NCBI GenBank assembly: GCA_905250025.1
Contig: CAJNOJ010000255.1
Location: 5,051 to 69,050 of the forward strand
Length of the DNA stretch: 64,000 nt
Reading direction: 5' to 3'
Source of the DNA: Adineta ricciae
Lineage: Eukaryota > Rotifera > Eurotatoria > Adinetida > Adinetidae
Below the pieces are notes generated by a model. It was not told the DNA's origin. It ran no database searches and saw only the letters and a list, made by a program, of their open reading frames with translations. Position 1 is the first letter of the stretch. The number at the start of each line of letters is the position of its first letter. Both the position numbers and the translations under genes were made by a program. Shown here in pieces: positions 32,997 through 59,195 of the stretch.

Positions 32997-35900
32997 TTAA
33001 GAACGAAGGCGTCGAAGATTTCTCTGAATAATACTTGTAAATTCATCCTTATAAGTTCTTGATGGTAAAACATAAACAATAAATGTGATCATCGATGGAA
33101 AAAATGAAAGTAAATATCCGAATAAAAATAACCAAGAATTATTTGGTGATTTCATACATCCACTGACAAATGAAATGATAAGACGAGGTAATCCCAATAA
33201 TACCAATGCAAATGACGCAATCAAATGATGCTTATGTTCTTTCAATTGTAATTTTAAATGTTCAACGTATGTTAATCGGGATTGAATAGTTGAACGATTT
33301 CGAGCGACTGTAATGATAATTATTATTGTTGAGATGAAATTGATTGAAAATGGAGGAAGAAAATGAAATAAAGTTACAAATGAATTATAAGTATTGATTG
33401 AAGATGAATAACGAGATATACACCAAAAACGTTCTTCATCAATATCAATATCTTTTATTAATTGTCGATGAAAAGGATCATGAAGATGAGTTGAAATTGA
33501 AAAGAGAATAACGAAACTTGTTACCCATTTTGCCATTTGTTTACTTTTACTTTTATTAAATGTTAAACCTTGTTTAACAGTAACAACACGTTCAATTGAA
33601 ATACATCCATCAAGCCAATCATTAATCGCTAAAAAAACTTTAATTAACACATCTAATAGAATACAATTGAAACGAAGAAATGAAAAATTGGTGAAAATTT
33701 TCATTTGTAATAAAATTAATTGAACAAATTTGTTCACCAATACAGATGAGATCAAGATCGAAATCCATCCGGATACGAATAAATAGAATCCACAACCATT
33801 TGTACGAATTTTCTCTACACGAAATGTGACAACAGTTAAGAATCCACCAAGAAATCCCATGAGAAACATCATGGTAACGATCGCGACACTCATTTTCACA
33901 ATAAATGGTTGTTGAGAAAACGAAAGATTCGGTTTAATATGATAACTGAGAATATAATCCAAAGATAAAACAAAACCTTCAGTTGTAAATTGACATTTTG
34001 TTCCATAAAAACAACCTGAACATAAACATTTCATTGAACTTGAACAAGTTTGATTTGCTAAAAAACATTTTCCTTTATTTTCACAAGGATTTTCTCTTTG
34101 ACCACAATTATAAGTTGTGTTACGATTGAATACAAAACAATTCGAGAAACGATCTTCATCACAAATGCACATGTAAAGTTCATCATAAAAACACATCACG
34201 TGTTTATTTTGTCGACAAAGTAATGGATACGATTTAACACGACGAAGATAATGAACAGATTTCAATGTTTTATCTAACAATTCATTGATAAAGATACAAC
34301 GATATTTGGGAAATAATTTTGTTTGAATATGTTCAGATTTGATAAAGTTTTCACGTTTAATGACCAAATAGAAATCTTCTTGAAGAGATTCGACAAAAAC
34401 AAGATGAAATGGAATAGTCGTGAAAATTGTCACTTGATTTTGTCCATATTTGATTTGTTTTAACATTGTACTTTGAACATGATCTGATCCTTGGTGAATT
34501 GTGATGAGATGAACTAAAAAAGATAAATCTGTTGATGTTGTTTCATCATTAAATTGAATATCAATCCGATTTTGAATATTTTCACATCGTTCTCCAACAA
34601 ATCCTTCTTTACAAATACAAATAAAGTTATTCAAAGCAACACGATCATCGATCGGTATACATTGTCCATCGTTTTCACAAGGATTTCTTAATGATTGACA
34701 TATTTCATGTTTTAGATAACATTTTGGACCGAATTTATATAATGGACAAATACAAATCGATGAATGAAGACAAAAAGAATCAGATGAACAAGAACAATTG
34801 GATTTCAATTGACAATTCAATCCTGAATAACCTGATTTACATTGACAAAAGTATGAAGAATTTGTGTTGACGTATCGAAGACATTTTCCACGATTTTCAC
34901 ATGATAATGAACATGAAAATTCGGTTTGTTGAGGATTCAAAGGGATAAGTAAACGTTTAGAAATACGATTGACGGGAAGGAATGGAAATGGAATTGGTAA
35001 AAGCCAACTTGCCCAATATGTTAAAGTTATTCGATTGAAAATATCAATTCGAACTGAAGAATTCGCTGAAGAATTCTTTGGTCTCGATGGATAAAGTAAA
35101 TTCAAATGATATTTTGTTCCACAATCACGTTTTGGTAAATGAATTATTTGTTCATGATAGGGGGAAATTTGTCCTTCATCATCAATAAGCATCAGAATTA
35201 GTTGGAAAATTGGCATTTCATATGTAAAAGTGAAATATTTCAATTGAATTGTTAAACTAACACGTTGATTTTGCCATTGACATTGTAAACCAAAATAAGA
35301 TGGAGGACAAAGACATTTCATCGTTGGATTATTTTCATAAAAAATGGCGAATCCTCGATTACAAAACCAACTAACTGAACCTTCAATATCAACATTGTTC
35401 AAAATTTGTTGTTGTTTTATTTGAATTTCTGTTGATTGAGGAGAAATCTGGGGAATAACAGATGGAAAATCACCTAAATGTGATGATCGAAGATATGGTT
35501 GTTGATTACGAATATTTTGTGCGATAGTTACACCAGATATACACAATGTTTTTGTGTTTCTCATAATTATAAAAGAGTTCGGAACATAATACATCGGAAG
35601 TTTAGGGATTAAACAAACATCATCATTATTTCCTTTTAATAAAGGTAAATTACTTTGATTCGAATATTCAACAGTGAGGCATTTGCTTTGATTCCAAAAT
35701 AAATAATTCTTCGCATCACCGATTGTTTCGTTAATTAAATGAATAACACGAAAATGTTTTTTTGAACTGAATTGTGTATAATCATCTGCTAAATATGATA
35801 TTGGTAAACAATAAGATATAGAAGGACGAACTTTTTCACAAAAAAGTTCATTAAAAGAACATAAATTATATGAACAATTGACTTCATCAATACCATTGAA

Positions 35901-37457
35901 ACAATGGATAAATCGATCACAACGAGTATTTGGATTATCACATGGCCACAAATGACAATCAGTTTCATCGGAATCTTTCGTTTCATTATCATCCGGAATA
36001 TATCGAAAACCATTACAAAAATGTGCAAACGGAAATGTTTTATGTGAATTGATCCATTTCAGAGAAGAATTGTTCGTTTCATTGGTCAATAGAAATTTTT
36101 CATTCCGATTCGTTTGAAAACAATTACGAAAAATATTTAGAAAAATAATTTGAAATGAAAACCATTGCTCGATTTTGTAACGAGTTATATTCAAAGCGTG
36201 ACAACAATGAAGACTATTGTTTATTCCAATATCCACGGAACAGAAAAGATATGTGGGACATCGACTTGCATTGAAACAAATGTAATCTGGTGTCAAATCA
36301 GTTTTTGATAAAGACAACGATCGATTTGTTAAGTAAATAAATTGAAAATATGAATAAAGCATTGGATATTGAGGGAAAACGAGCCATTCCAGTGGACAAT
36401 GATCAACAGGTAAATCACAATGAATTTCATTATGAAGATCAGAGAGAAAATCAATTCGATCTGGACGAATAAAACATAGAAGACGTTGTCGACATGCAAC
36501 AGTTGAAATATAATCAAATGAAGTGAAGAGAATTATTGTCATATATTGATCTCTTCGATTCTCACAAAAAGAATCGAAAGTAGGTACATTAAATTGTAAA
36601 ATTTGACCATCACCACATACAAAGTAATTAGGATATCCGTATGTTACTTCTTCACATTCAAATGTCGGAAATGTCATACATAATTCTCCAGTTTCTATTC
36701 TCCATTGTTCTGTTTCATCAGTTGTATCGAGACAATCGAAACTTTCTTCATAATCATTAGCAAATGTCTGCGAAATACATTCTTTACTTCTCAGACATTG
36801 AAATTCATCTTCTGAACAATGATTTTCTTCTAATAAATGACAGAATTGTTCATCTTCACCATGAACACAATCATAAACACCATTGCAGATTTCACGCCAA
36901 TCGAGACACATTGGTGATGGACCACGAATGCAACTTTTTAAGAACGGATAACATGTACCAACAGGAAAATCGAGATCTAATGATGGTGATTCATAGTGAA
37001 GAAATGTGAGACGAACAAGTTTACCAAATGAAACTTGTTGATCATGAATTAATTGATATTGACATGTTGAACCAAACCAAAAAGATGAACAATTGTAAAT
37101 GAATTTCTCTGAATGTTCACCATTGATTTCATAATCTTCTACAATATCAATTGGAATGAACCAATTCAATAATTGTGAACTCGTGATTCCATTTGTTGAT
37201 AATTTTTGAAAACTTATTTTGTTTTGGACATTTTCATCAGATATGAAAATCAACTTCTCTTTTTCATCTAATCGTTGACAAAAAGGAATCAGATGATAAA
37301 GTGTCAGATAAGCTCCATTCTCAATTAGATATGAATATTGTAAATGAGCATATAAACAATCAAATGTTTCTTCATCATTGATCGTTTCATAAAACCAATA
37401 ACGAGAATTACATTTGAAATAAATGAAAAAAACTATGAACAATTGAATGAATTTCAT
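32997..37457 (-). CDS. Large LDLa/EGF seven-transmembrane receptor, copy 1 (1486 aa)
   Basis: This is one uninterrupted exon of 1,487 codons. It has a signal peptide (MKFIQLFIVFFIYF), a novel-looking N-terminal domain with Cys pairs, an LDL-receptor class A module at about 169-206 (CIRGPSPMCLDWREICNGVYDC..EDEQFC), a second LDLa-like module just after, and further Cys-rich LDLa-like pieces around residue 500 (DETDCHLWPC, HCFNGIDEVNC). Several EGF modules follow in the second half (CENRGKCLRY...YSGLNCQ, CENDGQC...FVGERC, CENKGKCF). The last ~300 residues hold seven hydrophobic segments like a rhodopsin-class GPCR, with NDWLDGCISIERVV at the end of TM3 where DRY usually sits and VLPSRTY replacing NPxxY. 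A large adhesion or ligand-sensing GPCR is inferred. Tandem paralogue at 38449. Confidence 0.85.
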   Translation of the reverse strand: MKFIQLFIVFFIYFKCNSRYWFYETINDEETFDCLYAHLQYSYLIENGAYLTLYHLIPFCQRLDEKEKLIFISDENVQNKISFQKLSTNGITSSQLLNWFIPIDIVEDYEINGEHSEKFIYNCSSFWFGSTCQYQLIHDQQVSFGKLVRLTFLHYESPSLDLDFPVGTCYPFLKSCIRGPSPMCLDWREICNGVYDCVHGEDEQFCHLLEENHCSEDEFQCLRSKECISQTFANDYEESFDCLDTTDETEQWRIETGELCMTFPTFECEEVTYGYPNYFVCGDGQILQFNVPTFDSFCENRRDQYMTIILFTSFDYISTVACRQRLLCFIRPDRIDFLSDLHNEIHCDLPVDHCPLEWLVFPQYPMLYSYFQFIYLTNRSLSLSKTDLTPDYICFNASRCPTYLFCSVDIGINNSLHCCHALNITRYKIEQWFSFQIIFLNIFRNCFQTNRNEKFLLTNETNNSSLKWINSHKTFPFAHFCNGFRYIPDDNETKDSDETDCHLWPCDNPNTRCDRFIHCFNGIDEVNCSYNLCSFNELFCEKVRPSISYCLPISYLADDYTQFSSKKHFRVIHLINETIGDAKNYLFWNQSKCLTVEYSNQSNLPLLKGNNDDVCLIPKLPMYYVPNSFIIMRNTKTLCISGVTIAQNIRNQQPYLRSSHLGDFPSVIPQISPQSTEIQIKQQQILNNVDIEGSVSWFCNRGFAIFYENNPTMKCLCPPSYFGLQCQWQNQRVSLTIQLKYFTFTYEMPIFQLILMLIDDEGQISPYHEQIIHLPKRDCGTKYHLNLLYPSRPKNSSANSSVRIDIFNRITLTYWASWLLPIPFPFLPVNRISKRLLIPLNPQQTEFSCSLSCENRGKCLRYVNTNSSYFCQCKSGYSGLNCQLKSNCSCSSDSFCLHSSICICPLYKFGPKCYLKHEICQSLRNPCENDGQCIPIDDRVALNNFICICKEGFVGERCENIQNRIDIQFNDETTSTDLSFLVHLITIHQGSDHVQSTMLKQIKYGQNQVTIFTTIPFHLVFVESLQEDFYLVIKRENFIKSEHIQTKLFPKYRCIFINELLDKTLKSVHYLRRVKSYPLLCRQNKHVMCFYDELYMCICDEDRFSNCFVFNRNTTYNCGQRENPCENKGKCFLANQTCSSSMKCLCSGCFYGTKCQFTTEGFVLSLDYILSYHIKPNLSFSQQPFIVKMSVAIVTMMFLMGFLGGFLTVVTFRVEKIRTNGCGFYLFVSGWISILISSVLVNKFVQLILLQMKIFTNFSFLRFNCILLDVLIKVFLAINDWLDGCISIERVVTVKQGLTFNKSKSKQMAKWVTSFVILFSISTHLHDPFHRQLIKDIDIDEERFWCISRYSSSINTYNSFVTLFHFLPPFSINFISTIIIIITVARNRSTIQSRLTYVEHLKLQLKEHKHHLIASFALVLLGLPRLIISFVSGCMKSPNNSWLFLFGYLLSFFPSMITFIVYVLPSRTYKDEFTSIIQRNLRRLRS

Positions 37458-38028
37458 CTCTTCTTGAATGAGTTCAAATGATATTCCTTTTCCTTATTGC
37501 AAAATATTCAACATCTGTGCTTATAGCATTGAACGTATATATTTGGTTTTCCGTTCGTTTTTCCTCTTTTATATTTGAGAATAAAAAAACAAACCTTCAT
37601 CACTTTTTATTGAAAAAATTAACAGAAAAAAAAAAGAAGAACATAAACAATAACAGTAGTAAGCAACGAACAAACCAAATGGAACAGAGATTTAGAGTTA
37701 TTTTCACGGAATTTTCTCTCCAGTATCATACGATCGATATNNNNNNNNNNNNNNNNNNNNNNNNNNNNNNNNNNNNNNNNNNNNNNNNNNNCGATCCTTC
37801 GTACAAGTGATCGAGAGGCAAGTAGACTAACTATGAAACTGTATCACAACGAGCAGACCAAATGAATTGTGTTTCACATTTTGAATTCCACCAGAGATGG
37901 TGCCGAGAGCTTTTTCGCGTTGTAAATACATATTATATGTTTATTCTACGAGACAAGAATACCATATGCTATGTAAAAAAAACGTGAAAAATCTTTAGGG
38001 CGCCGCCCAACCATCCATTGAATCCTGG
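37458..38028. other. Intergenic region with a 51-base assembly gap
   Basis: This is the 5' flank of receptor copy 1, then a run of 51 unknown bases (37741-37791), then a short stretch without genes. The sequence 'gcgccgcccaacc...ctggttacgccac' near 38000-38035 looks like the end of a mobile element (such GC-rich ends with 'gtggcgtaacc' are common in invertebrate repeats), but the class cannot be named. Confidence 0.4.
37741..37791. other. Assembly gap (51 N)
   Basis: Run of unknown bases between the two receptor genes. Confidence 0.99.
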
Positions 38029-38448: not shown

Positions 38449-41400
38449 TTAACGATGAAACTGTTGCAGCGTCTTCCGGACGACATTATTAAATTCATTT
38501 TTATAAGTTTTGGACGGCAAAACATAAACGACAAACGTCATCATCGATGGTAAAAACGAAACTAAATATCCGGATAAAAACAGCCACGAATTACTCGGTG
38601 ATTTCATACATCCACTGATGAATGAGATGACGAGACGAGGTAATCCGAGGAAAACTAAAGTAAATGAAGCAATAAAATGATGTTTGTGTTCATTGAATTG
38701 TAATTTCAAATGTTCGACATATGTTAATCTTTGTTGAGCAACGGATCGATTTCGAGCGATTGCAATGATAATTATGATCGTTGAGAAAAAGTTAATTGTA
38801 AACGGCGCGAGAAAGTGAAAGAGAGTTATAAATGAATTGTAAATACTAGTTGAAGGTGAATACTGAGTGATACACCAGATTCGTTCTTCATCAATGTCAA
38901 TATCTTCGATTAATTGACGATGAAGAGGATCATGAAGATGAGTGAAAATCGAAAGAAGAGTAACGAATAAAATCATCCATTTCGCCATTCGTTTACTTTT
39001 CTTTTTATCAAATTTGATTCCTTGTTTAACTGTGATCACCCGTTCGATTGAAACACAACCATCGAGCCAATCATTGATGGCTAAAAGAATTTTAATCAAC
39101 GCGTCTAATAGAATACAATTGAAACGAAGAATGAACAGATTATCGTAACTTTTCAGTTGTAATAGAAGCAATTGAGAGAATTTCATTACTAATACACAGA
39201 CAATGAAAATCGAAGTCCATCCGGATGCGAATAAATACAATCCACAACCAGTTGTTCGAGTGTTGTTCTCGCGAAACGTCGCAATCAATAATAATCCACC
39301 GATAAATCCCATGAGAAACATCACTGTAACGATTCCGACACTCATCTTCACAATAAATGGTTGATGAGAAAACGAAAGTTTCGGTTTAATATGATAACTG
39401 AGAATATAATCCAGAGATAAAACGAATCCTTCAGTGGTAAATTGACATTTCGTTCCATAAAAACAACCTGAACATAAACATTTCAGTGTACTCGAACAAG
39501 TTCGATTTGTTATAAAACATTTTCCATTATTTTCACACGGATTCTCGCTTTGATCACAATCATAAGTTGTGTTTCGATTGAATGAGAAACAATTGGAAAA
39601 ACGATCTTCATCACAAATACACATGTAAATTTCATCGTAAAAACACATCAATTGTTTGTTTTGTCGACATAACTGCGGATAAAATTTCATTCGATAAAGA
39701 TAATGAGAAGATTCATTGAGCAATTCATTGACAAACGTACATCGAGAATTGACTGATAATTTCGTTTGAATGTGTTCGAATTTGATGAATTGTTCACGTT
39801 TAACAATTAAATAGAAACCTTCTTGAAGAATTTCTACAAAAACCAAATGAAACGGATTTGTTGTCCGAATTGTCAATTGATTTTGTCCGTATTTCATTTG
39901 TTTTAAGATTGTACTATGTGAGTGATTCGATGTTTCATAAATTGTGATCAGATGAATTAAAATTGGTGAGTCCATTGCGATCTTATGGGCATTAAATTCA
40001 ATGTCAATTCGATTTTGAACGTTTTCACATTGATCGCCAAAGAATTCCTCTTTACAAAGGCATGTGAAGTTATTCAAAGCAAGACGATCATCAATCGGGA
40101 CACATTGACCACCATTTTTACAAGGATTTTCCGATGACTGACATACTTGACGCGTTAGAGAACATTTCGAACCAAATTTGTATAATGGACAGATGCAAAT
40201 GGATGAACTAAGACAAAATGAATCGGCTGAGCAGGAGCAATTGTGTTTAAGTTGACAATTTGATCCCGAATAACCTGAATCACATTGGCAAAAGTACGAC
40301 AAATTTGTGTTCGCATATTTGAGACATTTTCCATGATTTTCACATGATAATGGACACGAGAATTCAGTTTCTTGTGGATTTAAAGGAATGAGTAAATATG
40401 CGGAAATACGATTGACGGGGAGGAATGGAAAAAGTATAGGTAAATGCCAACTTGCCCAATGTGTCAATGATCTTCGATTGAATACATCGATTCGAACTGA
40501 ATAATTCATTGAGGAATTTTTGGGTTGAGATGGATAAAGTAAATAGAAATTATATTTGATTCCACAATCACGTTTTGGTAAATGAATTGTTTGTTCATGA
40601 TATGGGGAAATTTGTCCTTGATCATCAATAAGCATGAGGATGACTTGGAAAATGGGCATTTCATATGTGAAAGCAAAATGTTTCAATCGAAATGTCAGAC
40701 TGACACGTTGATTTTGCCATTGACATCGTGGACCGAAATAAGCTGGTGGACAAAGACATTCCATTGTTTGATTATTTCGATAAAGAACGGCAAATCCTCG
40801 ATTACAATACCAACTACGAACCTCATTGGCATCAAGGTAGATAAAAGTGGGTTCTTTTATTGAAACTTCCGATGATTGATTTAAAATTTCTGATTTAATC
40901 ATTGGAAAATAACCTAAGCGTGATGATTGAAGAAACGGTCTTTGTCGACTTGCATAATAGGCATGCGAATCAAATCTGCATAGTATCTTGTTGTTTCTAC
41001 TAAACATACAATCACCATAACGGGCACTTTTAGGATATTTAGGAATTAAGCAAACATCCTCATTCCCCGTAGATGATACAAAATGACCGTGATAAAGATG
41101 TTCCATAGTGATGCATTTCGTGTCATTCCAAAACAAATAATCAGTGACATTCTCAATAGTTTCATTTTTGAAAAATATCACACGGGAAAATGTTCGTGGA
41201 TCAAATTTTGTATAATCATCAACTAAATGTGCGACGGATAAACAATGATGTATATCAGATGATTCCCATACTGTTTCTTCACAACTCAGTTCATTAGATA
41301 AACATGGACTATTTGGACAATTAAGTTCATCGATACCATTTAAACAATGTAAATACCGATCACATCGAGTGTATGGATTGTTACATGGCCAGAAATGACA

Positions 41401-42912
41401 GTCGGTTTCGTCATTGTCGTCAGTTTCAGTATTGTCTTTGATATTGATATAATCATTACAAAAATATCCAAATACAAATGTTTTGGGTGAGTTAACCCAT
41501 TGATTATCAATACTTCCAGAAGGATTTCGCTCTTTATCAATCGATAAATAGTTCTCATTTCGAGTGGTTCTGAAACAATTTTGTAAAACACTTGGAAAAA
41601 TGTTTTGAAATGAGCGCCAGTAATACATTTTGCCACGAGTTATATTCCGAGCGTTGCAACAATGCAGCCCACTACGCATTCCAATATCAACCGAACAAAA
41701 CAAATAGGCTGGACATCGAGTTACATTGAAACAAACTAAATCTGGTGTCACATCATCTGATGATGGAGATATCGTTCGGTTTGTGAAATAGACAAACTGG
41801 AAAAATGAGTATAGGATTGGATATTGAGGGAAAACGAGCCATTCGAGTGGACATTGTTCGAGAGACACGTTACAATGAATCTGATTCTGTAAATGTGAAA
41901 GAAATTTGATTCGATCCGGACGAATCGAACATATGAGAAATTGTCGACAGGCGAAATTCGAAATATAATCAAATGAAGTAAAGAGAGTCATTGTCGTATG
42001 TTGATCTCGTAAATTGGAACAAAAGTAATCGAAACGAGGCATCGAGTGTAGCTTAATCTCACCATCACCACACGAAAAGTAATTATAGACTCCATATGCA
42101 ATTTCTTCACATTCAAAAGTCGCAAGTCTGAAACATACATTTCCAGGTTCGAATACGACAGATTCCACTTCATCACTACCATCAAGACAATCCAAACTGT
42201 CTTCTTGATCTTTAAGAAATACTCGTGGAATACATTCTTTACTTCTTTGACATTGAAATTCATCGTTTGCACATTGATTTTGTTTTAATAAATGACAAAA
42301 TTGCTCATCTGTTCCATCGACACAATCGTAAATGCCATTGCAGATCTCGCGCCAATCGAGACATATTGGTGATGGGCCACGAATACAACTAGTCAAGAAT
42401 GGATAACAGGTACCAACAGGAAAGCCGCTGATATTTGGCGGTGGCGACCCACGTGCACGAAATGTGAGACGAACGAGTCGACCAAAGGAAACTTGTTTAT
42501 CATCAATTAATTGATATTGACATGTCGAACCAAACCAAGGAGAGGAACAATTGTAAAAGAATTCATCGGAATACTTTCCATTGATTTCATATTCTTCTGC
42601 AATATCAATCGGAGCGAACCAATCCAATAATTGCGAACTTGTAATTCCATTTCTTGATAAATCTTTAAAACTGATCTTATTTTGAACATTTTCATCGGGA
42701 ATGGAAACTAATGTTTCACTCTCGTTCAATCGTCGACAATAAGGAACAAGATGATACAAGGTAAGATAAGCTCCATTCTTGGTTTCATAGGAATATTGTA
42801 TATGAGAATATAAACAATCGAACGTTTGTTTATTATTCGATTGATAAAACGAATAACGAGTAGAACATGTTCGATAAGTCGAAAGAAATATGAACAATTG
42901 TATGAGTTTCAT
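38449..42912 (-). CDS. Large LDLa/EGF seven-transmembrane receptor, copy 2 (1487 aa)
   Basis: This is a single-exon paralogue of the receptor at 32997, colinear over its whole length and in the same orientation. Signal peptide MKLIQLFIFLSTY; LDLa module CIRGPSPICLDWREICNGIYDC..TDEQFC; second LDLa CQRSKECIPRVF...DCLDGSDEVE, here better preserved than in copy 1; LDLa-like DETDCHFWPC; EGF modules CENHGKCLKY...YSGSNCQ, CKNGGQCVPI...FFGDQC and CENNGKCFI. Then come seven membrane segments with NDWLDGCVSIERVI after TM3 and VLPSKTY near the end. The C-terminal tail is short and basic. Divergence between the copies is much higher in the ectodomain than in the membrane part, consistent with selection on ligand recognition. 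Ligand and coupling are unknown. Confidence 0.87.
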   Translation of the reverse strand: MKLIQLFIFLSTYRTCSTRYSFYQSNNKQTFDCLYSHIQYSYETKNGAYLTLYHLVPYCRRLNESETLVSIPDENVQNKISFKDLSRNGITSSQLLDWFAPIDIAEEYEINGKYSDEFFYNCSSPWFGSTCQYQLIDDKQVSFGRLVRLTFRARGSPPPNISGFPVGTCYPFLTSCIRGPSPICLDWREICNGIYDCVDGTDEQFCHLLKQNQCANDEFQCQRSKECIPRVFLKDQEDSLDCLDGSDEVESVVFEPGNVCFRLATFECEEIAYGVYNYFSCGDGEIKLHSMPRFDYFCSNLRDQHTTMTLFTSFDYISNFACRQFLICSIRPDRIKFLSHLQNQIHCNVSLEQCPLEWLVFPQYPILYSFFQFVYFTNRTISPSSDDVTPDLVCFNVTRCPAYLFCSVDIGMRSGLHCCNARNITRGKMYYWRSFQNIFPSVLQNCFRTTRNENYLSIDKERNPSGSIDNQWVNSPKTFVFGYFCNDYINIKDNTETDDNDETDCHFWPCNNPYTRCDRYLHCLNGIDELNCPNSPCLSNELSCEETVWESSDIHHCLSVAHLVDDYTKFDPRTFSRVIFFKNETIENVTDYLFWNDTKCITMEHLYHGHFVSSTGNEDVCLIPKYPKSARYGDCMFSRNNKILCRFDSHAYYASRQRPFLQSSRLGYFPMIKSEILNQSSEVSIKEPTFIYLDANEVRSWYCNRGFAVLYRNNQTMECLCPPAYFGPRCQWQNQRVSLTFRLKHFAFTYEMPIFQVILMLIDDQGQISPYHEQTIHLPKRDCGIKYNFYLLYPSQPKNSSMNYSVRIDVFNRRSLTHWASWHLPILFPFLPVNRISAYLLIPLNPQETEFSCPLSCENHGKCLKYANTNLSYFCQCDSGYSGSNCQLKHNCSCSADSFCLSSSICICPLYKFGSKCSLTRQVCQSSENPCKNGGQCVPIDDRLALNNFTCLCKEEFFGDQCENVQNRIDIEFNAHKIAMDSPILIHLITIYETSNHSHSTILKQMKYGQNQLTIRTTNPFHLVFVEILQEGFYLIVKREQFIKFEHIQTKLSVNSRCTFVNELLNESSHYLYRMKFYPQLCRQNKQLMCFYDEIYMCICDEDRFSNCFSFNRNTTYDCDQSENPCENNGKCFITNRTCSSTLKCLCSGCFYGTKCQFTTEGFVLSLDYILSYHIKPKLSFSHQPFIVKMSVGIVTVMFLMGFIGGLLLIATFRENNTRTTGCGLYLFASGWTSIFIVCVLVMKFSQLLLLQLKSYDNLFILRFNCILLDALIKILLAINDWLDGCVSIERVITVKQGIKFDKKKSKRMAKWMILFVTLLSIFTHLHDPLHRQLIEDIDIDEERIWCITQYSPSTSIYNSFITLFHFLAPFTINFFSTIIIIIAIARNRSVAQQRLTYVEHLKLQFNEHKHHFIASFTLVFLGLPRLVISFISGCMKSPSNSWLFLSGYLVSFLPSMMTFVVYVLPSKTYKNEFNNVVRKTLQQFHR

Positions 42913-43254
42913 TCGTCAATGAATCCAATCAAATGAAAGTAATGCATCACCTGTTGATTGTTTTTCTTTTTTTAAAAACATCAAACATCTGCTTTTCCGC
43001 TCATTTTCCTGTTGTATATTTGAGAAAAACTACATCCATGCAGATTATTAACGTTTGATTTCAAATTCCCCATTGTCATGGATTTTATCCGAGGCGTATC
43101 CCTACCGGAAATTTCAAAATGAGATGTCGAGAAACGAAACAGATTGTTTTGTTTTATCTTTGTTGTGATCATGATATGGTTGAATCCATCGCAGAGAGAA
43201 GAAAAAAAGCCGAGTATCGATAGAATTATATACTTAAAGTAACATATGTTTTAG
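42913..43254. other. Short gene-free stretch
   Basis: This is the 5' flank of receptor copy 2. A possible splice acceptor ('gttttag', ending at 43254) directly precedes the next coding-like segment. Confidence 0.35.
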
Positions 43255-50301: not shown

Positions 50302-52826
50302 AACTATAGTGTGTTATATTTGAATTGTTTTCGCTCTTAATTTATATGTCGATTTCATTAACAACCACACGAGAGAAATAGAAGAAAATGATACTTTATT
50401 GACCAAGTAAATACACATTAAGAATATTTTCAAATATTGATAACCCTTCAGGCAAGTTTCGCAGCTCGTTTCTATAAAATAAATAATTTCCATCGCAATT
50501 TCTGACACCGTATACTTTTCAACATACGAAGTTCTTTACAAAAAAACTAACCAATGTTGAAGAAATATACATAATAATTAAAAAGTATTTGAATATGTGA
50601 CAAAGATTTAGAAATAAGATAGTTCATCTACAAATATTTTCAAATTTACAAAAAAATCTTAAGTATATATAAAAAATGCCTGGAGAAACATTGTGGATCG
50701 TTGTTTGACAAATGTGTGGACATTAAAGAAGACAAACTCTGATGAGTTCTTATCGAAATAATTCTTTCATATATCTTCAGAGAAGACCAGAGAATATTGA
50801 GGACTATGCAAATAAATATCAATACAAGCTGTACTTTGATTTATCTTATACTATCAATTTTGAGGATGAAAAGTCTGGAAAGATATCACATCTTAAGTAT
50901 TGTTTAGCTGATATGTACTGAAATGTTTACGAGAAAACTTCATCGTAGTAGAAAAAGTCTACTTTAGTCTTGAATCGTTCAATAATTCATAATGTGAAGC
51001 AACATTTCCGGCTAAAGTGAATTGTGGATAAATTCAAGACTGACGGTGTTAAAGAGAACAATCTCGATCTGGTTTATCATTGATCCCATTTAATGCTTTC
51101 GAAGAAATTTGTTATTTCTTCTAGAAAATTATTTGAATTTAGTGACTTTAATGTACACTTTTTTCTCTATAAATATATTTCTTGATTTATTTAACATATA
51201 TAATCATCTATTAAATTTACTTTTTCCATATTGAGATTATGAAATAAGAACGAGATAAAGCGAAAGAATTTTTGAGTGATTGAAAGTTTTAGTTGATTTA
51301 GAAACGTCATAAAGAGATTTTTTTCTATAACAAATTCGTTTTCCTTTCTTTTCTGGATATACCTCTCTCTCTGGAGATCATCTCCTTTGATATTCTATGT
51401 GGATCATTTTTTTTATTTGGATACTTTTTCCATAAATTCACACATCATGAACTATACAAGACATTGGTCAACAAATGTCATCTGAAGAATGCCATACAGA
51501 AAATAGTGACAATTCGCGGATTAATATGAATTCTTTCGATGATGGTTTTGCTAAAATGTGATTGGAATCTTCAAGATCTGAACAAGAATTTTCTGCTAAC
51601 GAATTAGATTCAAAATCGTTTCTATTGATTGCTATTATTATTTCATCACTGACGAAGTCATTAGTCCTATGGTTCGAGAGATTAATCGATATGTACAACA
51701 ATGCTGACAAATTCTTCAATGAAAACCAACTATTCATGAAGAAATGCGCAAAAACTTCTAACAATTTCACTGATTCAATATTGAATAAAACAAATACTAA
51801 ATAGGTTTCGACGGAAAATGGTCATACATCAGTGTACATAGATTTATTCGATAAAAATATTGCGTGCATACAATAAGAATCTGGAAAGAATTGAGACAAG
51901 ATCATCGACTATAGTGTACATTTTGTTTTCATTAAAGAAAAGAAATGATTATTTTTTGTTCTGTTCGTTATTGAATCATTGATTTAAATAGATGAAATTC
52001 ATGTCATGATGTGATTTTTAGTTTAAAAGGAGGAAAAAAAATCATGAATCATATGAATGAAAAGGAGAAAAACGAATCACGAATGTATAAAAAGAAGTAC
52101 AACGTTGTTTCTTTGACTATATTAACAGATTGAAACAGTTCAATCATCAATTATTTCTACACGTCCGTTTTCACAACTCGAAACACGAATCAGATTGTAA
52201 TGAAGTTTTCTGCATAGGTAATTCGATCTCGATTGTTATTAATATTGATGAGCTATTATAAAAATATTAATGTCAGTGTTTCTTATAGGATATTTGTAAT
52301 ACAAATTACTCTTGAATAAAATGCGAAATTTTCACATTTTATATATCTTGGTGCACAAAAGAATATTCAAAACCGTTCGATACATTTCCTATTTATTTCC
52401 CTAAGCAATATAACATTTTTTCCCCGATCAAAAATTGTTTTCATCTCCATGAATAATTTAAATATTCGTACTTTTTCTCAGCGAAAAAAAGCACCTTTCA
52501 TTACTTGTATAGTTGATGCCATTAATATGAATTGTCACCTGTTTTTTTTCTCAATTCTACATCAGTACGATGTGAATTTATGTCAACAGAACTTATTTGC
52601 TTTGCCTACAAGCGAGAAATTGCCTTTTTTTGTACATGATTTATCAAACATCGTAAATATACCGATGAATAAATAAATTAGAAAAACATTTTTTGATCAA
52701 GCTGTTAAAATTACTGAGAAGTAAGACGAAAATCTTTTTATCTCAGTGAAATTATAGTTTCAATCGGAATTGAAACTTTCATTTCTATGATATTGTTTTA
52801 GATATTTACTTTTCAAGTGAAAGACA
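50302..52826. other. Gene-poor stretch with short coding-like remnants
   Basis: No complete gene was found. Near 50780-50930 the plus strand reads a coding-like run (RRPENIEDYANKYQYKLYF) that ends at TGA; near 51470-51800 both strands have open frames without motifs. An ATG frame at 52449-52676 has no recognised content. The last few hundred bases are the 5' flank of the ADP-ribosyltransferase gene. Confidence 0.3.
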
Positions 52827-55800
52827 ATGAAGAGGCATAATAATAATAAGACAATAGATGATCATCCTTCGATCTCACTAACGGAAATCGCACGGATGAC
52901 CGATCAATTACAGAATATTGATGAAGAAGAAACAATAACAGTAACAGTGAACGATTCTATTGAAAATAATCTTCGAGTTGTTGATGTAACTGTTGACGAA
53001 CCAAATGTCACTCCTGCGCACATCAATAATAACAACCAAGGAAATTCAGGTCCTATTATTGGATATGCTCAAGCACCTTTATTACCACTTGTTAAAGCAT
53101 GTGCGCCATTGACTCATATTCTTCATAATTTATCATTCTATGTACAAATGGCACTTAACGAAACTCCAGAAGAACCACCTGATGGTTTAACAATTGATGA
53201 AAGTGCTGCAATTCGTCTATACTCAATGGAATGGAAACAACCACATCGAAGTCTTTATTCCATGCTTAATTATACAATCAACAATGATCGTCAAAATTTG
53301 CCATATTATTATAAGTATATGAAACTATTCTTAACTGGTTTAGTCAAATTACCATGTCATCCACCGTTAACCGTTTGGCGAGGTGTGACTAAAGATTTAA
53401 GTGCGCATTTTCCACCCGGTGCATCAGTAACTTGGTGGGGATTTTCATCATGTACAACTTCATTGACTGTATTGAATAATAATTTGTATTTGGGTAATAG
53501 TGGTGATCGTACATTATTTTCCGTCGAAGCAATTAATGGTCGAGCAATACGTGCTCATTCACGTTACATTACTGAAGAAGAAATTCTTCTTTTACCTGGT
53601 ACTCATATGATAGTCCAATCACAGTTGAATCCAGCACCTGATCTTCATATTATTCATTTGAAACAAATTATACCGGACGAAGTTTTATTGGAACCACCAT
53701 TTAAAGGTATTTTTGAATATTTTCATTTATTTATTTTAAATGAATCCTATTTCTAAATTTAGGTGCACATATTTATCCAGAAAATCAGTAAGTTGGACAT
53801 TATCTTGTAGTACTCGTAGTTTTAATCGATGTTTTTGTTATATTTACAAGACGTCAGTGGTATCGAATGAAAAGATTCGTCATTCCACTCGCTTTATTGA
53901 TTGCTCTTATCATTGCAGCAATCATCCTTGGCTCCGTTTTAGGAACAAGAGCTAACAAAACTTCAATAATTAACAGTACTTCAGGTACGATTCTTCTCCT
54001 TTCAGTTCGGGAGAGATGAGTATTACATATCTACATTTTCATATTTCCATTCAATTTGATTTTTAGTGTCTGTGTGCGACAAGCCATTTGAATACAAAGG
54101 TTCTTATGATACTGGAAATTATCCAGTTTCTACTACACTCGGCTATTTTACTAATGACAAAAACTTAGATGCAGTAGTAGCTAACAGCGACGACAATTAT
54201 ATCACGTTAATGCTTGGAAATGGAGATGGAACCTTTATATTTCCAGGCAAGTATGCGGTTGGCATGTCTCCCACTTCTGTGACGACAGCTGATTTTAATG
54301 GTGATGGTAAACTGGACCTTGCCGTGGCTCACGGGGATGACAACACCATCAGTGTGTTACTGAACAATGGAGATGGATTTTTTCAGACTCCAACATTTTA
54401 TACAGTTGGTCGTTCCCCTCAATCTGTGATAACATATGATTTTAACAATGATGGTCGATTAGATCTAGCGGTAGCAAATTATTTTGACGATGCTGTCTGC
54501 ATATTACTTGGCAATGGGGATGGAACTTTTCAGACCTCAACATTCTATTGGGTTGGTGATGTACCGGTCTCGGTAATATCAGATGATTTCAACAATGACA
54601 ACAAAAAAGATCTGGCAGTGGCCAACTATATGAACAACACTATCAGCATATTACTTGGTAATGGGGATGGAACTTTTCAGTCCCAAAAATTATATTTGGT
54701 GGGCGATTCTCCACGATCTGTGGCATCAGGTGACTTTAATAATGATAAAAGAGTGGATCTGGCTGTGGCTACCTTTACTGGAAATACTATCAGTGTGTTA
54801 CTTGGCAATGGAGATGGAACATTTCAAGCTCCAACATACTATGTGGTAGGTTCGGTTCCAAGTGCTCTGGTAGCATATGATTTCAATAACGATAAAAGTA
54901 TAGATTTAGCAGTGGCCAATTGGGGCGGTGGAAGTGTCAGCATATTGCTTGGCAATGGTAATGGAACGTTTCAGGCCCATGTGGATTACATGATTGGTAG
55001 AACTCCAGTATCTATAATATCAACTGATTTCAACAACGATCAAAAACTGGATCTCGCAGTGACCAACTACTACAATAACAGTATCAATGTGCTATTTGGA
55101 AAAGGAGACGGAACTTTTCAGGATCAAACGCACTATATGGTTGGTGTGTATCCAACTTCTTTAATATCAGGCGATTTCAACAATGATAACAAACTGGATC
55201 TTGCAGTAACTAACTATAATGACAGTACTGTAAGTGTATTGGTTGGTAATGGAAATGGAATGTTTCTATCTACAACGAACTACACAGTTGATATAAATCC
55301 AACTTCTGTGACGCCAGCTGATTTCAACAACGATGGCAAATTGGATGTGGCAGTGGGTAACTATTACAGCAACACTATCAGCCTACTGCTTGGCAACGGA
55401 GATGGAAGTTTTCAAAGTCCAATGAACATTGGAGTTGGTCAGGGGCCGCAATCAGTACTGTCAGCTGATTTCAACAACGATAATAAAACAGATCTGATCG
55501 TGACTAACCAAATTGATAATACTACCAGTGTGTTATTGGGTAATGGAGATGGAACCTTTCAGTCTCCCTTAAACTTTATAGTTGGTGGTGGGCCACAATC
55601 TGTCACATCAGCTGACTTTAATAATGACCGCAATGTGGATCTAGCAGTGGTTAACTACTACAGCAACACTATTAGCGTATTACTTGGTAATGGTGATGGA
55701 AGTTTTCGGAATCCAGTGAACATCGGTGTTGGTCATGGACCACGATCTGTAATATCAGCTGATTTCAACAATGATAACAAACAGGATTTAGCAGTAACAA

Positions 55801-56141
55801 ATTTCTTCGAGAACACCATCAGCGTGTTATTTGGTAATGGAAATGGAAGTTTTCTGGCTGCAAGGAACTATAGGGTTGGTAGTCGACCAGTTTTTCTGAT
55901 ATCAAATGATTTCAACAATGATATCAAAAAAGATCTGTTAGTAGCCAATTATAACGATGGAACTGTCAGTTTATTGCTTGGTTATGGTAATGGAACTTTT
56001 CAAAGTTCAATCAAATATGCAGTTGGAAAGGGTCCATCTTCTATAGCGTCAGGCGACATCAATAATGATAGCAAATTGGATGTGATTGTAACAAACAAAG
56101 AGTCTGTAGGGATGTCTGTTCTTCTTAACGGTTGCAATTAG
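52827..56141 (+). CDS. ADP-ribosyltransferase / transmembrane / FG-GAP propeller fusion protein (1037 aa, four exons)
   Basis: Exons are 52827-53706, 53763-53787, 53851-53984 and 54067-56141. Introns are 56, 63 and 82 bp, all GT-AG, and phases join exactly. The N-terminal ~290 residues are an arginine-type mono-ADP-ribosyltransferase with the R-S-E signature: R185 in VWRGV, Ser207/208 in GFSSCTTS, and E250-x-E252 in TEEEILLLPG. Exon 3 encodes a basic stop-transfer (RRQWYRMKRF reading across the join) and a membrane span, about 311-333. Exon 4 encodes about fourteen FG-GAP/VCBS repeats of ~46 residues with D-x-N-x-D-G-x-x-D calcium loops and LLGNGDGTF. Topology puts the enzyme inside the cell and the propeller outside. 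If intron 2 is retained, translation stops after PENQ and only the soluble transferase is made. A two-gene reading is the alternative. Confidence 0.8.
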
Positions 56142-56640
56142 TTGATAATCTTATTTCAAATATATTGACATACGTATATGTGAATCATTAATCTTGAGTG
56201 TGTGTGTGTGTGATTTTGAATAAATAAATATCGTCATCAATTTCGACTTCTGACTTTTAATGTTAATTCTCTTTCTATACTCAAAATATTCCCTATCGTT
56301 GACTTACACTTAAAAATAAACTGATTTTTTTTTGTATCAGCAACAAAATTATATTGGCTAAGTTGTGGAAGTTATTTGATGTCGCTTTAACTTTTTACTA
56401 ACAGTTTAGAGAAGTTCTATCGTGAACTTGTCAAAAAAAATCTTCGAGAATATACTCATAGCCTTCATAGTCGAACAGTCAAACGTTTCCAAAGCCAACT
56501 CGTATTTGTTGAGCGAGCGTACATCAGATTGGTTGTAATTAATTGTTAAAATATATATAATTAAGTTTTAAAACCCTGTTTGAGAGATTATGTAAAATTG
56601 TTCTTTGACATTTTAACAAAAAGAATTAGTCCTCGTTTAC
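56142..56640. other. Gene-free stretch
   Basis: This is the 3' flank of the fusion gene, with a short (TG)n run near 56198-56212. Nothing else is recognised. Confidence 0.4.
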
Positions 56641-57729: not shown

Positions 57730-59195
57730 TTAATCTTCAATCATTTCATGTAATTTTTTAATTGTGAAATCACGTAATTGCTCGAGAATATTTAACGGAA
57801 TGACGGGATCAGGTCCCCCAAACATAATTGTGAATACTCCATTAACAGTTTGAAATGTAATAAATGGCATATTTCCTTGAATCATATTAAGAATCGGAGT
57901 CATTCCTTCAAATATCCATCGTCCATATTGTTCATGAAATGGTAAAACACCCCAACTAGATATAGAACAAGTAGTAAGTTGAGGAGGCTCAGGATAATCT
58001 AACATTTTTGAAAACATTTGCCCACCCATTATACCAAAAGTAAGAACTTGGTTAGCATTAATGCATTTAACTGTATGTTCTCCGAATCTTTGAGCAAGTT
58101 GCCATGTTTCTGCACATGTTGTTGGTACATTTCTCAACGGCATTTCGAAAAACATAAGACTTGATACATGAGTAGATAGATCATGGTTCGGAATTGGTGG
58201 AATATATCGTCGACGTGAATCAGCTACAACACCTAATCGAAATATACTTCTTTCGACTTGTTCATGATCTACTAATAATGAAAATGCATATATAATAGCA
58301 CTAGAAACAGCAGATGTAATTGATACACCTTCTTGATGACATTTAATAACCAATTTTTGTGTTTCTTGTTTATTTAATATTCCATACGCAGCTTCTGAAT
58401 GGCAATGATCAGCCATTTCAGCTAATACAAAATCAACGTTAGCTAATGGAATTTTCGCTATTGGTGATCGATTTGCTACCAATGTGTATAACATTTGAAA
58501 CATTAATTTACTAAATGATAGTATTCTAGTTATTTTTGAGAGACTTCTTTGTACTGCTGCTTCCATAGTTATTGGCCAATCTAATGATTTAGAGAAAAGG
58601 TTGTCATTTTCATCAGCTAAAGCGATGAGAACTTCATGTGCTGCATTACTCAATGATAATGCATCAGAAACACTATGTTCACAAATAAATACAATTTCTC
58701 GTGGACTATTATCATCATGTTGATTTTCTGGATCCTAGAAAATTATCAAAATATTAGCTATATCGATCATGAATTACTATATACGTATACCTGCAAAAGC
58801 CAAAATTCAGCTAAGCCTTCACCAATGATTGTTGTTGTTTTTTCTCGTTTTCTCCATTCCTGTTTCCAAAATACTTCATGATCGGATTGTTTTCTTGATA
58901 TTTCTATGATTTTAAGTTGAAGTGTATTATCTTCTTCTAAGAAATAACAATGTGTTTTTCGAGGATTTCTTTGAAGACGACTTCGTAGAATAGGATGACG
59001 TTGCTGTAATTTAGTAACTGCTCTAGATAATCTTTCAAAAGATATATACGGTCCTTGGAGATGTAAAACTTCACAAATTCGCGTTGCTCCTTGATATTTC
59101 TGTGATGATTTCATGTAAGCATTTTCCATCGATCCTAATAAGCGTTGATTCCTTCCATCAATAGATAAATCATTTCTTTTACATAAGGAAAACAT
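57730..59195 (-). CDS. Condensation-fold acyltransferase (469 aa, two exons)
   Basis: Exon 1 is 59195-58791 and exon 2 is 58734-57730, with a 56-bp GT-AG intron in phase 0. The fold is that of the CoA-dependent acyltransferase / NRPS condensation superfamily (chloramphenicol acetyltransferase-like). It shows LSRAVTKLQQRHPILRSRL in the first lobe, the active-site block as EHSVSDALS (H155 and D159 in place of HHxxxDG), and GVVADSRRRY followed by SSWGVLPF near the DFGWG-like region. The catalytic His is kept, the Gly after Asp is replaced by Ala, and the first His by Glu. As a free-standing enzyme it resembles PapA5 or alcohol acetyltransferases that esterify lipids or alcohols. No carrier-protein domain is adjacent. 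A bacterial or fungal origin is plausible but untested. Confidence 0.8.

Follow-up and report, generated by a model that had tools for sequence, protein, structure and literature searches.

The vertebrate ecto-ADP-ribosyltransferases (ARTC, PF01129) are secreted or GPI-anchored, and so act outside the cell. Integrin alpha chains have seven FG-GAP repeats, folded as an N-terminal propeller, and a C-terminal membrane span. Receptor kinases and guanylate cyclases have one span, an inside enzyme, and an outside domain that differs among members; we know of no receptor with an arginine ADP-ribosyltransferase (ART) as its inside part. No such receptor was found among the open-licence PMC papers listed, judged by title or abstract start, and one may stand uncommented in databases. 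In Adineta vaga, the FG-GAP, LRR, TPR, and NHL repeat families have undergone lineage-specific expansion, with suggested roles in defence, chemosensing, and signalling (Arkhipova et al., 2013, PMC3846280). An ART fusion is not named in the part of that paper drawn on here, and the terms ribosyl, FG-GAP, and VCBS are absent from the main text of PMC11258130.

We analysed a window of 64,000 nucleotides from Adineta ricciae (contig CAJNOJ010000255.1), in which a gene at 52827-56141 joins an ART, a membrane span, and an FG-GAP array. The initial annotation had read this as a single gene with phase-matched introns, placed the catalytic residues at R185, S207/S208, E250, and E252, and counted one membrane span and about fourteen repeats. 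All of this was borne out: a scripted splice model of four exons (Table 1) yields one 1037-residue frame with a final stop only, the catalytic residues lie at those positions, one strong span and 14 repeats were found, and the same model of an ART followed by a span exon was recovered by script in 28 of 30 paralogous loci. Because these loci share the model, and because a second copy on contig C157 is collinear with the gene, the splice model is not a product of chance. Two AG acceptors for intron 2 lie within 53840-53869, and only the one at 53850 keeps the frame. All three introns fall inside the 30-100 bp range given for the majority of introns in bdelloid genomes (PMC5916493).

The window protein resembles the vertebrate ecto-ARTs in its R-S-E triad and E-x-E motif, by which it is predicted to be an arginine-type enzyme, but, unlike them, it lacks a leader, has its span behind the ART, and bears an additional outside domain. 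Like integrin alpha chains it has FG-GAP repeats beside a membrane span; in contrast to them it has 14 repeats, a propeller that is C-terminal to the span, and an enzyme on the predicted inside. The order of outside domain, single span, and inside enzyme, together with the variety of outside domains, is like that of receptor kinases and guanylate cyclases, the membrane sides of the window protein being assigned by sequence rules. The family differs from these receptor enzymes in its type II orientation and in having an ART as the inside enzyme, and its signalling is a prediction.

Table 1. Features of the ART-span-propeller gene, with positions in the window.
Feature	Position	Strand	Evidence and occurrence
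Exon 1: fast-evolving N-terminal tail (residues 1-74) and R-S-E ART (about 75-293)	52827..53706	+	PF01129 4.8e-7; R185/S207-S208/E250/E252
Intron 1, phase 1, 56 nt	53707..53762	+	GT..AG; in 27 of 28 modelled loci, missing from L049
Microexon of 25 nt, GAHIYPEN and part of Q	53763..53787	+	Found at this length in 25 of 28 modelled loci
Intron 2, phase 2, 63 nt, donor GTAAGT, TAA in frame if retained	53788..53850	+	In 26 of 28 modelled loci
Membrane-span exon, RQWYRMKR-span-GTRANKT, N-terminal side positive	53851..53984	+	Hydropathy maximum 3.06 at residues 311-329
Intron 3, phase 1, 82 nt; outside domain differs behind this junction in two paralogs	53985..54066	+	Phase 1 in 23 of 24 automatic models
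Propeller exon, 14 FG-GAP repeats spaced 49 residues apart, cysteine at each end	54067..56141	+	FG-GAP_3 1.6e-110

Three further frames noted in the window lie on the minus strand. One adjoining the gene (57730-58734) matches PapA_C (1.6e-7) and alcohol acetyltransferase (3.2e-5), and two adjacent frames of about 1490 residues (33000-37493 and 38452-42915) contain EGF domains, the second also an LDL-receptor A domain.

The Pfam ART match on exon 1 is above the cut-off but modest (29.8 bits, cut-off 22.3). R185, S208, and E252 are invariant in all 30 family loci, and E250 is present in 29, the exception being the broken locus L066; the exon-1 protein of L044 is truncated by our first-Met rule in these residue counts, as it is in the tree and in the tail-motif and leader counts. 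Three cysteine columns are common among the exon-1 ART proteins of the family. Comparison of the window gene with the C157 copy gave dN 0.014 and dS 0.157 for ART residues 75-293, 0.032 and 0.200 for the propeller, and 0.053 and 0.066 for the N-terminal tail (residues 1-74). The ART and the propeller are thus both under purifying selection, and the tail hardly is. Within the tails of the 30 loci (L039-L068), an NVRxQT-like arginine motif occurs in 13 and an RVVD-like motif in 14 exon-1 proteins, the patterns having been chosen after viewing; these short arginine motifs are possible self-modification or docking sites. A search of solved-structure sequences gave no match for either the ART half or the propeller half, and single-sequence structure models of the two halves had confidence too low to use (mean pLDDT 32.5 and 42.5, the latter for the propeller).

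The last exon matches FG-GAP_3 over 13 stretches (362 bits, cut-off 26.9), and its repeats score higher with this model than with the FG-GAP model PF01839. All six full-length copies, namely the window's and those on C157, C121, C206, C641, and C410, have 14 repeats at a pitch of 49 residues; our FG-GAP regular expression is loose, giving 17-24 matches per protein, and the 14 are those that fall on the 49-residue ladder. The same six copies have a cysteine at either end: one precedes the initial repeat motif by about 20 residues, and the other is among the final nine residues of the frame. Among 72 FG-GAP frames listed, 22, 13, and 10 have lengths near 7, 14, and 28 units and 27 lie elsewhere, the frames having been copied by hand and the length bins chosen after viewing. 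Repeat counts and frame lengths together suggest a seven-bladed unit, of which the window protein would contain two.

FG-GAP genes are far more numerous in the genome than ART fusions. No ART or span was recognised in about 2 kb upstream of the propellers on C176 and C235, which are two of the closest outside C157 (50% and 49% identity). Since FG-GAP genes without an ART are common, a propeller alone does not imply signalling. A further FG-GAP gene (L076, C604:34000-36000) has a different N-terminal span with an RRSK flank, read by eye, and no ART was recognised in the stretch read. One pattern-based scan found nine prokaryotic FG-GAP_3 relatives with the same repeat as the window protein. The best of them, L087 from a Parcubacteria MAG, reaches 42% identity in its top segment, which covers query residues 6-688; it was the one of the nine scanned for an ART, and none was found. 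A bacterial origin of the FG-GAP repeat is possible.

Exon 1 gave 137 matches in the A. ricciae genome (130 Mb in 1033 contigs), of which 30 loci were fetched and modelled. Apart from the window's own, the best match is a copy on C157 with 95% identity; its DNA is collinear with the window at 93% over 51688-56532 and 89% over 51175-51587, and it looks like a homologous or homeologous locus. The two loci that do not give the ART-span model are L055, which stops at an assembly gap, and the broken L066. In 26 of these 30 loci, the 1.5 kb downstream contain 2 to 12 FG-GAP motif matches; among the remaining four, L041 has cysteine-rich exons instead, L049 and L055 run into N, and L066 is the broken copy. 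Eight contigs (C73, C81, C147, C206, C221, C350, C407, and C448) each hold two or three copies of the family. Directly upstream of one decayed ART-span-FG-GAP remnant (L099, C332:91800-94100) we noted a TPR-type repeat frame, by eye.

The arginine-ART family is much wider than these loci, with at least 150 scored places among 553 candidates, counted by exon and not by gene; the window ART is not among the 150 places scored. Of the scored places, the 30 loci with the best Pfam ART scores have no FG-GAP array, some of them showing stray single motif matches. Five of the next relatives in the exon-1 search (C101, C4:371680, C199, C470, and C614, 48-50% identity) have no span exon and no FG-GAP in 1.35 kb downstream. 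Because neither the best-scoring ARTs nor these five relatives have the FG-GAP array, the ART-span-propeller fusion seems to be a feature of a single ART clade. Other ARTs have other neighbours: an ART frame at L080 (C199:132500-133850) runs on into DUF2807 (PF10988, 1e-27), which Pfam describes as a putative auto-transporter adhesin, head GIN domain. At L081 (C470:6300-7650) an ADP-ribosylglycohydrolase (PF03747, 2.2e-40) lies behind another ART, a possible writer-eraser pair or fusion.

Two members of the family have a different domain behind the span. At C211 (L084) the ART and span are kept, separated in our by-eye reading by an additional small exon, and are followed by a LamG domain past its cut-off (PF13385, 6.5e-8) and by further LamG-like sequence, again by eye, up to the end of the frame; the span here is the weakest of 37 span matches (E 8.6e-4). 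At C142 (L041) the ART, microexon, and span are kept and are followed by tandem cysteine-rich exons, with ten matches within 2.6 kb, for which no Pfam family was found. No FG-GAP was seen in the stretches read at either locus, the one at C142 stopping 2.8 kb past the array. Read by eye, both loci have a phase-1 junction behind the span, as do the FG-GAP members. The single exception among the automatic intron-3 models is L065, with phase 0; its near-twin L063 is phase 1, and the automatic models of both L060 and L065 look wrong, while L041, L049, L056, and L059 have none.

In our tree, C142 falls within a clade of 27 rows (100/98), the other rows of which carry FG-GAP where readable, and the C211 LamG copy is at the base (90/80), a position rooted on one long branch. 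That branch is L023, the only one of eight planned outgroup rows to qualify, and the tree omits the broken L066 and several members (such as C677, C221:63133, C73:330618, and C1010). Because C142 is nested inside an FG-GAP-carrying clade, its cysteine-rich array looks like a replacement of the propeller. The cysteine-rich exon itself (CNDGVxNGDETDxDCGG) is tandem and widespread, with 175 matches on C142, C700, C229, C29, C123, and other contigs. About 2 kb beyond the C142 array is a Kelch-like frame, by eye, which may be another gene.

Could the model have joined two adjoining genes, or describe a decayed copy? A Met codon lies in frame directly upstream of the span, and FG-GAP genes without a recognised ART occur, as a false join would have it; however, intron losses have fused adjacent parts in the DNA itself. 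In L049 exon 1 runs straight into the microexon, and in L064 and L067 the microexon runs straight into the span exon; these uninterrupted genomic junctions are the nearest available equivalent of cDNA. The span exon matches the genome at 37 places, and a by-eye comparison puts 33 of these under 400 nt downstream of an ART match. The span exons at C407:78544 and C350:15409 follow ART pieces interrupted by N, and those on C332, with an ART remnant, and C278, without ART, are in decayed copies whose FG-GAP sequence has decayed too. No intact ART-less gene was recognised among the 37, and we reject two separate genes on these DNA-level fusions and on the placement of span exons mostly behind an ART. 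Decay does occur in the family, which includes broken or truncated members (L066, L083, L085, L086, L098, and L099), but the window frame is intact and its dN/dS against the collinear C157 copy is low, so that a false join or a decayed copy can hardly be the explanation. A third alternative concerns splicing. The initial annotation saw a built-in switch in the TAA at the intron-2 donor, by which intron retention would give a soluble ART as a regulated second product; skipping of the microexon might do the same. Its reading of the unspliced exon 2 end as PENQ-TAA is correct, and retention of intron 2 leads to an immediate stop in all 26 modelled loci that have the intron. Donors of the form GTRA are found at intron 2 in 26/26 loci versus 6/27 at intron 1 and 3/24 at intron 3, and this excess could reflect selection for the stop. 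It could also compensate for a missing exonic last-base G, which is common at intron 1 and mostly absent from intron-2 donors (by eye); a stronger intronic half of the donor is a known compensation for a weak exonic half. The stop is in any case automatic, because intron 2 has phase 2 and a GTAA or GTGA donor, and relatedness of the loci means that their GTRA counts cannot be taken as independent. Intron 2 has been lost altogether from L064 and L067. In the window, moreover, retaining intron 1 or intron 3, or skipping the 25-nt exon, also leads to a stop within 20 codons; since other mis-splices stop early too, the TAA is no special device and we reject a stop/splice switch of that kind. A regulated soluble ART seems to us unlikely.

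The orientation in the membrane bears on the remaining alternatives. One span stands out from the rest of the protein, in which the next best hydropathy is 1.27. In 27 of 28 loci the flank of the span that faces the ART carries the higher net charge (mean +5.3 versus +1.7), and no hydrophobic leader was found, by a hydropathy threshold, in the window protein or in 27 of 30 exon-1 proteins, the truncated L044 among them; the exceptions are L054 and L057, read from upstream of a likelier start, and the broken L066. An oxidising exterior would suit both the end cysteines and the substitute domains. Charge flank, missing leader, end cysteines, and substitute domains therefore favour a cytosolic ART and an outside propeller, in agreement with the initial annotation, although the membrane could be an inner one instead of the cell surface. 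The reverse arrangement, with the ART outside and the propeller inside, would match the extracellular vertebrate relatives, and the span might in principle insert in either direction, but the charge flank and the hydropathy and leader evidence lead us to reject it, and with the end cysteines and extracellular-type substitutes on the non-ART side it is very improbable. The protein might instead be an anchor that senses nothing, its adhesive or matrix-binding ectodomain keeping a constitutively active ART at contact sites or beneath the membrane. In integrins, FG-GAP propellers serve adhesion, the LamG and cysteine-rich substitutes can be adhesive too, and no signalling motif was identified in the family. 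In the span and first repeats, however, most members are 38-54% identical to the window protein, and outside domains so diverged beside invariant catalytic residues fit a repertoire of sensors at least equally well; we regard a mere anchor as possible but rather unlikely.

We favour the reading of the protein as probably a type II membrane receptor-enzyme. Its N-terminal R-S-E arginine ART would lie in the cytosol, a single signal-anchor span would cross the membrane, and the 14 FG-GAP repeats outside would most simply form two propellers of seven blades each, which probably bind calcium, like other FG-GAP proteins. A ligand at the outside domain would change the NAD-dependent modification carried out by the ART, by clustering or position, and the targets would be arginines of cytosolic proteins or of the tail of the enzyme itself. 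A likely use would be to recognise microbes, food, or surfaces, because several copies occur per contig and the outside domains are exchangeable. A receptor-like enzyme had been proposed in the initial annotation; the family of about 30 members and the different outside domains of two of them strengthen that proposal without proving it, and sensing remains predicted from sequence.

More tentatively, the family may comprise about 30 receptor-type ARTs in which a conserved cytosolic enzyme and span are joined through a phase-1 intron to exchangeable sensors: a double FG-GAP propeller, a LamG domain, or a cysteine-rich array. Arginine ADP-ribosylation would then play the part that phosphorylation has in receptor kinases, perhaps in the recognition of microbes or food, with ADP-ribosylglycohydrolases as the off-switch. 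ADP-ribosylation is reported as one of the processes enriched in the A. vaga genes that are over-expressed at desiccation and following rehydration (PMC10809525), and as one of the processes under-expressed in spaceflight, where it is discussed via PARPs and DNA repair (PMC12220480). Because the arginine-ART family is large here, part of this bdelloid expression signal may stem from ARTs and not from PARPs, with the proviso that species and annotation may differ. With its invariant catalytic triad and different outside parts, the family offers an animal example in which outside-in signalling by ADP-ribosylation could be tested.
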